Of a stretch of DNA of 64,000 nucleotides, positions 48,087 to 51,599 are shown in pieces. The notes under the pieces are model-generated. The model saw only the letters and a list, made by a program, of their open reading frames with translations, was not told the origin of the DNA and ran no database searches. Source of the stretch: Aurantiacibacter gangjinensis (GTDB lineage: Bacteria > Pseudomonadota > Alphaproteobacteria > Sphingomonadales > Sphingomonadaceae); contig NZ_CP018097.1 in assembly GCF_001886695.1 (NCBI RefSeq), forward strand, positions 2,127,001 through 2,191,000, read 5' to 3'. The stretch's first letter is position 1. Each line of letters starts with the position of its first letter. The translations under genes and the position numbers were made by a program.

Positions 48087-49439
48087 TTACCGCATCAGAA
48101 CAAGCTCTTCCGCCATGGTCGGGTGGATCGCCGTGGTGGCGTCGAAGTCTTCCTTCGTCAGCCCCGCTTTCACGGCAATCGCCGCGGCCTGCATCATTTC
48201 GGGCGCTTCGGGCGCGATCATGTGGATGCCGACGATGCGGCCATTCGCGCCGTCGCACACCATCTTGAACAGGCTCCGCTCATTCCGTCCGGCGACGACA
48301 TTCTTCATCGCGCGGAAATCGGACTGGTAGACCTTGACGCTGCCCAGCGAATTCTTCGCCTCGCCCTCGGTCATGCCGACGGATGCAATGGGCGGATGGC
48401 TGAATACGGCGCTGGGGATGCAGCTATGGTCGACGGCGCACGGGTCGCCATCGCCAAACACGGTATCGGCAAAGGCCTGCCCTTCGCGGATTGCGACGGG
48501 GGTGAGCTGCACGCGGTCCGTCACATCGCCCACGGCATAGATGTGGTCGACGCTGCTCTTGCTGAAGCGGTCGACGACCACTTCGCCATTGTCGCCCAGT
48601 TCGACGCCGATATCTTCAAGGCCCAAGCCGTCCGTATTGGGCACGCGGCCGATGGCGCACATGACCAAGTCGGCGCGCTCCTCCTCGTGGTTTTCCAGCT
48701 TGACGAAATAGCCGCCTTCCTCGCACTCGCGCACATATTCGAAGGTGGTGTTGAAGCGGAACTCGATGCCCTTGGTGATCGAAATTTGCAGAAGCCGGTC
48801 GCGCACCGCTTCGTCATAGCCGCGCAGCAATTTGTCGCCGCGATTGACGATGCAGACCTTGCTGCCGAATTCGTTGAAAATGCCGGCGAACTCGTTGGCG
48901 ATATAGCCGCCGCCTGCGATCACCACCTTCTTGGGTAGCTCGTCGAGATGGAACGCCTCGTTCGACGTGATGATGTGCTCGTGCCCTTCGCAATCGGGCA
49001 GGCGCGGCTTTGCGCCGGTGGCGATCAGGATATATTTGGCGGTAACTGTGCTGCCATCTTCCAGCGTGATCTCGTGCGGACCGGTCAGCTTCACGCGCTG
49101 CTTGATCACGGTCACATCATGATTTTCCAGCGTATCGGTATAGGCGTTTTCGAGCCGCTTCACATCGTCCAGCACATGATCGCGCAGTTTGATCCAGTCG
49201 AAGCTCTTGCCTTCGATGGTCCAGCCAAAGGCCTGGCAATCTTCCAGATCCTCCGCGAATTGCGCGCCGTAGACCAGCATCTTCTTGGGCACGCAGCCCC
49301 GGATGACGCAGGTGCCGCCTACGCGGTGTTCCTCGGCAATGGCCACGCGCGCGCCATGCGCGGCGGATACGCGGCTCGCGCGCACGCCGCCGGAGCCTGC
49401 ACCGATGGTGAAGAGGTCGTAATCATATTTGTCGGACAT
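48087..49439 (-). CDS. gor: glutathione-disulfide reductase
   Basis: Gor reduces oxidised glutathione with NADPH. The 450-residue flavoprotein begins with the FAD motif YDLFTIGAGSGGVRASR and has the redox-active disulfide GGTCVIRGCVPKKM (Cys44, Cys49). An NADPH region with IAGGGYIANEFAGI follows, then the C-terminal interface motif IPSAVFSHPPIASVGMTE and the His-Pro base in GIHMIAPEAPEM followed by AIHPTMAEE. It is the plant/alphaproteobacterial Gor type. Confidence 0.95.
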   Translation of the reverse strand: MSDKYDYDLFTIGAGSGGVRASRVSAAHGARVAIAEEHRVGGTCVIRGCVPKKMLVYGAQFAEDLEDCQAFGWTIEGKSFDWIKLRDHVLDDVKRLENAYTDTLENHDVTVIKQRVKLTGPHEITLEDGSTVTAKYILIATGAKPRLPDCEGHEHIITSNEAFHLDELPKKVVIAGGGYIANEFAGIFNEFGSKVCIVNRGDKLLRGYDEAVRDRLLQISITKGIEFRFNTTFEYVRECEEGGYFVKLENHEEERADLVMCAIGRVPNTDGLGLEDIGVELGDNGEVVVDRFSKSSVDHIYAVGDVTDRVQLTPVAIREGQAFADTVFGDGDPCAVDHSCIPSAVFSHPPIASVGMTEGEAKNSLGSVKVYQSDFRAMKNVVAGRNERSLFKMVCDGANGRIVGIHMIAPEAPEMMQAAAIAVKAGLTKEDFDATTAIHPTMAEELVLMR

Positions 49440-49531
49440 ATGGCGCGGTAATTCCCTGAGTCAGCGAAGGTGAGTGGCTGCATGGCCATTCGCTGGCGCA
49501 CGGGCAAGGCTTTCAACCCGCCGCGCCGGGA

Positions 49532-50548
49532 TCAGGTTCCTAGCAAGGGCATGTTATCGCGCAGCATTGTCCAGCAGGGTGTGCGTTCGCGCGTAACGAT
49601 CTGGTCGGCCCCGATACCGGCATTGCGCGCCAGCAGCTGGGTGACTGCTTCGGGGCCCGGCCCCTCACCCTGCCGCAACGCGACAAGCGTTTCGGGCGCC
49701 TGCGCCAGGCGCTCGTCGAACAGCAGCGCCACATCCATCGGGTTGAAATCGAAACCGAGAAACAGCAGCCGCCGCGCTTGTGCCAGCCCGCCATTCAGCG
49801 CGGCGCGCGCGGCGCGGCTTTCGCTGAACTCTCCGGCGGTGCGGATAGCTTCGGCCACGCCAAACAGCGCCTTGGCATCGTCGTCACCCCAAGAGGCGGC
49901 CGGTTCGTCGCCCGCTTGCCAGTCGAGCCGCCCGGCTTTGCCATAAGGCTGCACGATGCGCAGCTTCTCGGTCACGATCGACTGCGCCTCTGTCAAATCC
50001 ATGCCGAAGGCATTGCGCAGCGCCCATGGCATGTAATGCTGCACGGCGCGGTCGCAGTTGAAGTTCACGATGTGAAGATTGTCTAGACAGCTCTCCGCCT
50101 TGGCGCGCGGGACGCCGTCCACCACCAGGCTGGCGAGCTGGAACAGCCAGTTTTCGGACCCGCGCAGCGGCAAGTCGCCCGGATCGCGCGGCTCCTCTTC
50201 CATGGGAGAGGTCGCCTCGGCCTGCAATGCGAAGAAGGCCAGCGCCAGCTTGCCGACAGCCTGCACGTGCTGGTCATCGCCCAATTGCTGCAACAGCGCA
50301 TGCAGCGAGCTGCTGAGCCGCGATCCTGCACGCAGACGCACCGCCGCTTCACGCAGCGCCGCGTCCTTGCCCTTCACCTTTTTGAACAGCGCGTCAAAGG
50401 CCTGCATGTCATCGGTCTGAAGGCCGGTGCCCAGCCGCTGGAAATCGAAAGACTGGCCGATCTTGTGCAGGATATCGCGCGCGTCGGGAAACTCCAGTTC
50501 CACCGCAGCGCCCGCGCCCACGACAACCGTGGTTTTCGTCCTGATCAT
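49532..50548 (-). CDS. SIR2-like (Rossmann NAD-binding fold) protein of unknown function
   Basis: The 338-residue protein opens with TTVVVGAGAAVELEFPDA, the NAD-site pattern of SIR2-like proteins (GAGxS-type). It later has LHIVNFNCDRAVQHYMPWAL (pattern FNxDrxxEh), RIVQPYGKAG (where relatives often have HxYG or HG) and RRLLFLGFDFNPMDVALLF. This order resembles SIR2-like domains seen in several bacterial NADases, some in antiviral systems. The His of the third block is Gln here, so NADase activity is doubtful. An in-frame TTG at 50560 would add four residues. It is in one direction with gor and the PAP2 gene. Function is open. Confidence 0.55.
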   Translation of the reverse strand: MIRTKTTVVVGAGAAVELEFPDARDILHKIGQSFDFQRLGTGLQTDDMQAFDALFKKVKGKDAALREAAVRLRAGSRLSSSLHALLQQLGDDQHVQAVGKLALAFFALQAEATSPMEEEPRDPGDLPLRGSENWLFQLASLVVDGVPRAKAESCLDNLHIVNFNCDRAVQHYMPWALRNAFGMDLTEAQSIVTEKLRIVQPYGKAGRLDWQAGDEPAASWGDDDAKALFGVAEAIRTAGEFSESRAARAALNGGLAQARRLLFLGFDFNPMDVALLFDERLAQAPETLVALRQGEGPGPEAVTQLLARNAGIGADQIVTRERTPCWTMLRDNMPLLGT

Positions 50549-50576: not shown

Positions 50577-51599
50577 TCAACCAGCCGGAACTAGACCTTC
50601 GTTGGTTAAGTTTGCGCTACCATCGCGGTTTGCAGTCCGCCTCGCGCTCGACCGATCGCGCCGCGCAAAGTACGCATTTACCAAAGCGATGGCGACGATG
50701 GCGACCGCCGCGCCCGCCACGATATCGATCACATAGTGGCCGCCGATCGGTACGGCAGCCAACGCCATGCCGATATTAAGAAGAACGAACGGCCAGCGTA
50801 GCAGCCGGAAACGCCACCAACACCAGGACAGCAAGACCGCAGCACATGCGTGGAAGCTGGGAATCGTCACCATCCCGGTCAGATTATCCATACCGATGGA
50901 ATCGATAGCGCCACTGCGCATCCCTTCGAACTTCGGCAAAAAGTCCCAAGGAAGCGCGACGAGGCTACCGGGCATATCTTCGCGCGAAATACCATAGTGG
51001 ATGTAGGGGGACTTCGCTGGCAGGAAGTGGAATGGCAGGATGCACCCCGCCATGCCCAGCGCCCAAACGCTGACCAGCCCCTCCATATCGCGCAAGCTTC
51101 CGAAGAACAGCACTAGGACCAGAAATGCGAAAGGCTGCCAATTCAAGGAGGCGTAGATATAGCTTAGCGCGGTGTAGAGCCGCGGGTATTCGGGCAGGTT
51201 CAATGTGAAGCTGCGCCAATCAAAGAACGGGAACAACGCCTTGTCCAACGCGACAAGCGTATCATCGATATACGCGCCGCCGCCGATGGCCAAGACCGAT
51301 GCCGCAAGCGCCGCAAAAAGCGAAAGCATGGCAAAGATGCATAGGGTTTCGATCAGGCCCGCCAGCTTCGAACCCGGTGAAAACATGCGGGTACCAAAAC
51401 CCATCACCCAAACGAAACAGATAAAGGCCAGCGAGGCGTTCAGCGAGGCATCGCCATTCCAACCGCCCGGAAGTATAGTCACACCGTAGGCGACGATGGC
51501 GGCAAACACCGCCAGCATGGCCAATGGGATGACAAACGCTTCCTGAAAAGTCGCAGCGACACGGGCATGAATGGGCCGAAGGGAAAAGCGTGATGGCAT
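50577..51599 (-). CDS. membrane phosphatase, PAP2 superfamily
   Basis: A 340-residue protein with about six hydrophobic segments and a loop bearing the acid-phosphatase motifs TIPSFHACAAVLL (PSxH-type) and IGGHYVIDIVAG (GHYxxD). Family members remove phosphate from lipids or make inositol phosphorylceramide. Sphingomonads make sphingolipids, so a role there is possible but unproven. The C-terminus is Arg/Asn-rich and cytosolic. It stands 28 bases upstream of the SIR2-like gene. Confidence 0.85.
   Translation of the reverse strand: MPSRFSLRPIHARVAATFQEAFVIPLAMLAVFAAIVAYGVTILPGGWNGDASLNASLAFICFVWVMGFGTRMFSPGSKLAGLIETLCIFAMLSLFAALAASVLAIGGGAYIDDTLVALDKALFPFFDWRSFTLNLPEYPRLYTALSYIYASLNWQPFAFLVLVLFFGSLRDMEGLVSVWALGMAGCILPFHFLPAKSPYIHYGISREDMPGSLVALPWDFLPKFEGMRSGAIDSIGMDNLTGMVTIPSFHACAAVLLSWCWWRFRLLRWPFVLLNIGMALAAVPIGGHYVIDIVAGAAVAIVAIALVNAYFARRDRSSARRTANRDGSANLTNEGLVPAG

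Follow-up and report, generated by a model that had tools for sequence, protein, structure and literature searches.

The window, a stretch of 64,000 nucleotides from the genome of Aurantiacibacter gangjinensis, contains a gene for a SIR2-fold protein of 338 amino acids (P0001; 49532..50548, minus strand, with the ATG at 50548), an assignment that is based on the open reading frame, an AlphaFold model and structure searches. The reading frame in which the motifs GAGAA, FNCDRAVQH, QPYG and LGFDFNPMD had been recognized in an earlier note is real, and the motifs occupy residues 11-15, 163-171, 200-203 and 264-272 of the protein, respectively. The same note described the gene as standing alone, which is not the case. 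The glutathione reductase gene, gor (48087..49439, minus strand), follows on the same strand after a spacer of 92 nt (49440..49531, minus strand), and this fixed downstream neighbour accompanies the SIR2-like gene in all 34 genomes of the genus that carry it; in G211 just the start of gor is visible before the contig ends. On the other side a gene for a PAP2-family phosphatase (50577..51599, minus strand) separates the SIR2-like gene from the DEAD-box gene. No PAP2 gene was found at the corresponding place in the other loci of the genus examined, and among these loci the arrangement is confined to the window's genome. A literature search, covering titles and the openings of abstracts, gave no paper on the gene among the matches listed.

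The SIR2-like gene is found in 34 of the 40 genomes of the window's genus, and in 30 of the 33 good ones, being absent from three. Named records with identical proteins place Aurantiacibacter rhizosphaerae, A. odishensis, A. luteus, and A. sediminis in this genus. Across the family the gene was found in 10 of 199 genomes, and across the order in 27 of 296. An Erythrobacter-like genus, that of genome G180, has it in 19 of 100 genomes; 17 of these 19 are of the gor-side type, with gor observed downstream in 16, and the L159 stretch from this genus is too short to show whether gor follows. The Novosphingobium-type members are found at other loci, 11 of the 20 in one shared setting. Matches on plasmids (three records with the window protein as query, 14 with a distant member) all come from Rhizobium or Agrobacterium, and some of them are annotated as SIR2 family protein. 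The window protein is taken to belong to an uncharacterised SIR2-fold family which has the signature FNYDR...HPYG, and its own gene to be chromosomal and inherited vertically.

Among 54 distinct gor-side proteins the spacer between the two genes measures 39-116 nt in 51, about 290 nt in one, and about 1.5 kb in two. An obligate operon of the SIR2-like gene and gor was considered and rejected, since gor has a promoter-like element (TTG-N17-20-CATA) within the spacer in 38 of 51 gor-side genomes (mean for shuffled sequences, 0.9), and the same element precedes gor in seven of ten genomes without the SIR2-like gene. The pattern is missing from the window's own subclade, and a generic scan for sigma-70 promoters and terminators gave nothing exceeding the shuffled sequences. 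With a separate promoter-like element for gor in the spacer of most relatives, the adjacency need not imply a shared transcript. The gor gene found at the locus (48087-49439 in the window; L038-L074) comes in two types that diverge from each other; one shares about 72-86% identity with that of the window, the other about 58-60%. The type can differ between sister species (G223 has another than G206 and G229, for example) with no loss of the SIR2-like gene, and this suggests that gor has been replaced in place. One close copy of gor is present in 16 of the 18 genomes searched, and none has two.

When it comes to the protein, the proposed SIR2-like fold is borne out by the AlphaFold2 model (pLDDT 91.3, pTM 0.90) and by structure searches that place it with ThsA and other SIR2 proteins, and we take the fold as established by prediction. 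The best VIA-align match of the model is PsSIR2 (Z 14.7, rmsd 4.0, 250 residues), followed closely by SIR2-HerA, SIRT5, ThsA, SPARSA, KomC, and DSR2; for BcThsA the values are Z 13.0 and rmsd 3.2 over 221 residues. Foldseek returned five matches with E < 0.001, all of them SIR2-HerA chains or KomC with TM-scores near 0.4, and the TM-scores of its top SIR2 matches in the PDB are modest (0.33-0.48 on the model's length). As a single sequence the window protein matches nothing in Pfam (including SIR2_2, PF13289), NCBIfam or the PDB sequences, and the PADLOC SIR2 model matches it weakly (E = 0.0015). Its relatives, searched with E up to 1, match the PADLOC SIR2 model in 15 of 25 cases (best 5.5e-6) and Pfam SIR2_2 in eight of 25 (best 5.6e-6), while a second, wider set of relatives matches SIR2_2 weakly in 15 of 25 at the same limit. 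Searched against the PDB, a profile made from this wider set matches the NADase KomC (E 3.4e-4). In the nucleotide loop GAGxS the window protein has kept GAG, and Ser15 is replaced by Ala. The four zinc-binding cysteines typical of CobB-type deacylases were not found; the protein has three Cys and no CxxC.

In the earlier note a Gln was thought to take the place of the catalytic His, and this holds in part. Gln200 (codon CAG, 49949..49951, minus strand) does replace the His that is conserved in the family (HPYG; His200 in 89 of 103 aligned members), but the His of the HG motif of SIR2_2 proteins aligns with residue 202. The canonical profile used for this comparison was built from 15 SIR2_2 proteins that came from a search of 119 genomes within the same bacterial family and were chosen by a TTNYD-like motif; these show TTN[YFW]D and [LFIMV]HG. 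Its Asn aligns with residue 164 in all 59 alignable family members. Of the 42 members that could be aligned at its HG His, 39 have residue 202 there, and none has residue 200. The window protein has kept the Asn of NYD, Asn164 (codon AAC, 50057..50059, minus strand), and has Tyr202 (codon TAT, 49943..49945, minus strand) at the place of the His of HG. The family motif is otherwise HPYG, with HPHG in eight Novosphingobium-type members. Judged from the alignment, Gln200 may thus not sit at the canonical catalytic His, a place that would be occupied by Tyr202, and the link between residue 200 and catalysis is at most putative. With hhalign, the local alignment covered the C-terminal strand alone, and in global mode the register at the His loop was not usable. 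Asp166 and Arg167 are invariant in all 103 aligned members. The Asn matching Asn164 is conserved in most sirtuins. For FAM118 this residue is reported to be needed for activity (PMC12700824).

Within the window's genus both positions have been lost repeatedly. Asn164 is replaced in seven of the 34 orthologues (Gly in three, Ser in two, Asp and Cys in one each) and His200 likewise in seven (Gln in five, Arg and Tyr in one each), so that 12 of the 34 lack one or both, and two lack both. On the Erythrobacter side one of 20 sequences has Thr at position 164. In a quick tree the gor-side proteins form one clade (SH-aLRT 100). On a tree built without columns 164 and 200, seven changes are needed for Asn164, all of them inside this clade, and for His200 five changes there and seven overall. 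Outside the clade position 164 is Asn in all 48 aligned members, a set that leaves out L084 (a genus-like fragment filed with the distant members) and is partly biased by selection on motifs. It is also Asn in 13 of 13 outside members found by a profile without the motif filter, of which at least four were already in the set of 48; two more fragments miss the site. Position 200 is Arg in seven of 28 distant members (L084 again left out), five of which have His at position 199; the loss of His200 is therefore not confined to the genus. Phe163, Asp166, Arg167, Gly203, Gly221, and Gly265 remain fixed. The window protein deviates at nine of 34 family-conserved columns, which is the top of the range in the genus (0-9), and S15A, D83H, Y165C, E170Q, H200Q, and N272D are among these changes.

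The gene is nevertheless under purifying selection in the genus despite the loss of residues. The frames are open in all 34 members and encode 338-342 amino acids, nearest-pair pN/pS of the changed proteins is 0.16-0.55, and GC3 is 0.63-0.85 in the 13 sequences with lost residues. Relative to its neighbour genes the SIR2-like protein evolves two to three times faster in the genus than in Erythrobacter. The median distance relative to pgi is 2.87 in the genus (325 pairs) against 0.89 in Erythrobacter (78 pairs, from a motif-based set), and the corresponding medians are 3.94 and 1.29 relative to DEAD, and 2.69 and 1.22 relative to gor. The excess of changes at the pocket motifs over other conserved columns was not significant (permutation p 0.06-0.19), and the faster evolution may thus be general. 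In Erythrobacter dN/dS is 0.02-0.09 among the pairs listed, with dS saturated in many.

Upstream of the gene most gor-side orthologues have a conserved island of 30 nt. Its consensus is cTAg-N7-TTAAcCAt, with a cTA some 8 nt further on; the flanking columns carry little information. The pattern [ACT]TA[AG]-N7-TTAA is present in 45 of 54 upstream regions (shuffled mean 0.6), the half-site TTAA[CG]CA in 44 of 54 (shuffled mean 1.1), and a full TTAA-N7-TTAA site in three of 54. The corresponding control counts upstream of gor are 1/51 and 0/51 for the first two patterns, and in background windows they occur at 0.6 and 0.8%. CtrA sites have been described as TTAA-N7-TTAA (PMC9437464), and TTAA half-sites near -35 are reported to act as activators in Caulobacter (PMC4287350). 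The element appears to fit the CtrA consensus in part. In the window the element is GTAGCGCAAACTTAACCA (50603..50620, minus strand) and lies within the PAP2 gene, at its 3' end; the CtrA-like TTAA half-site is kept (TTAACCA), and the first half, GTAG, is off the consensus pattern. In the window's genome no enrichment of a regulon was seen, as the element has 10 matches and the reversed pattern 22, and no regulon is therefore claimed. Eight Novosphingobium-type members have TTAA[CG]CA 70-88 nt upstream.

The best reading of these results, in which we have roughly even confidence, is that of a chromosomal SIR2-family protein that is turning non-catalytic, with a nucleotide-binding or scaffolding role. 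The earlier proposal of a degenerate NADase gains indirect support, in that the genus has lost Asn164 and His200 repeatedly while the frames are intact. The loss of supposed catalytic residues from an intact gene suggests that the protein was once an NAD enzyme and is retained for a different job. In the window's genus an NAD-using enzyme would then be turning into a non-catalytic protein in which the fold is retained and cleavage of NAD is weak or lost. The protein might still bind a nucleotide of the NAD type or a partner protein, and its role could be that of a regulator, a sensor or a scaffold. Its expression would depend on a promoter of its own, which CtrA possibly controls, and it would not be produced as the effector of a defence operon. 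The Erythrobacter and Novosphingobium proteins are probably enzymatic, judging by the residues they have kept. A broader proposal is that Erythrobacteraceae have recruited the fold of SIR2 NADases for a housekeeping protein whose timing is set by CtrA. This pseudo-NADase would sense NAD(P)(H) or ADP-ribose and serve as a scaffold or regulator, a proposal that we regard as doubtful.

One point that speaks against a non-catalytic protein is that the window protein retains Asn164, and the main rival is for this reason a still active NADase or ADP-ribosyl-transferring enzyme of altered chemistry, in which Asn164 would work with Gln200 or Tyr202 in place of the His. This is possible, if somewhat improbable. 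The residue that aligns with the canonical Asn in all alignable members is present, Asp166 and Arg167 never vary, and the distant members with Arg at position 200, most of them with His at 199, indicate that His200 need not be essential. However, S15A, D83H, Y165C, E170Q, H200Q, and N272D are combined in this one protein, and relatives in the genus lose Asn164 itself. At the other extreme the gene might be functionless in the window's species and merely decaying towards loss. Its accelerated evolution in the genus, its absence from three of the 33 good genomes, and nine genomes without it in which the DEAD-box helicase gene adjoins gor with no trace of a gene between them are what such decay would leave, but the open frames in every member, the pN/pS and GC3 values of the sequences that have lost residues, and an upstream element that is mostly retained make it quite improbable.

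An abortive-infection NADase directed against phages, encoded by one gene on its own or working together with an unlinked partner, is likewise unlikely; both defence and plain decay are less likely readings. Many of the nearest solved structures are defence SIR2 proteins, and 15 of the 25 relatives have a match to PADLOC SIR2 models with E up to 1. Against this, most of the genus carries the gene at one and the same fixed place, and the gene is strongly conserved in Erythrobacter, where dS is often saturated. The earlier remark that a known effector partner is missing agrees with the loci, although the gene does have gor fixed beside it. No defence neighbourhood was seen around the gene in the genus or in the distant loci examined, and the distant members have no neighbour gene common to all; a few pairs are shared, as where two loci have a pair in common. 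The flanks of the 25 distant loci comprise 137 heuristically called ORFs (up to three per side, 90-900 amino acids), of which 131 were scanned, the six of L147 being left out. At most nine of the 131 match PADLOC at E 1e-10, in eight families, while 39 ordinary genes of the window, used as a control, matched 19 PADLOC families with one member each, so there is no sign of defence enrichment in the flanks. A partner in a defence island or operon was therefore rejected. The Pfam families of the flanks are mainly housekeeping among the matches listed (25 of 163 families), and a phage collection searched with the distant member L149 gave no match.

Bacterial SIR2_2 proteins are discussed mostly as anti-phage NADases. 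With ThsA, KomC, DSR2, and SIR2-HerA the family shares the SIR2 fold, the GAG loop, the NYD motif, and a strand on the C-terminal side, G-[FY]-x5-N, where the window protein has D for N. It differs from them in having HPYG or QPYG and not [LFIMV]HG, in its fixed chromosomal locus with no effector partner or defence neighbourhood seen, and in the repeated loss of key residues in the window's genus. The vertebrate non-canonical sirtuins FAM118A/B are likewise chromosomal SIR2_2-type proteins, and lead the listed Foldseek matches in TM-score on the model's length (TMq 0.47-0.48). Unlike the proteins of the genus, FAM118 is reported to retain both the Asn and the His, which are required for NAD processing (PMC12700824). 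The overall fold is also common to deacylase sirtuins of the CobB/SIRT5 type (Z about 12-13, rmsd 3.5-4), which differ from the window protein in having the zinc CxxC pairs and a His at the place of residue 202.

The single-gene chromosomal branch is strongly conserved in Erythrobacter while its sister lineages shed the supposed catalytic residues, and this offers a natural series for studying non-cleaving uses of the fold. It also cautions that not every SIR2-like gene is a defence gene. If the recruitment of a pseudo-NADase is true, this would be a bacterial SIR2 protein outside immunity and deacylation, and living species would preserve the stages from an intact to a lost active site. A second, distant SIR2-like copy (29%), in which the Asn and the His are both kept, is present in G226 (L066, G226:C2:469621-480472). 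This copy adjoins a gene of 358 amino acids, a relative of which is found near the SIR2-like gene in L139.
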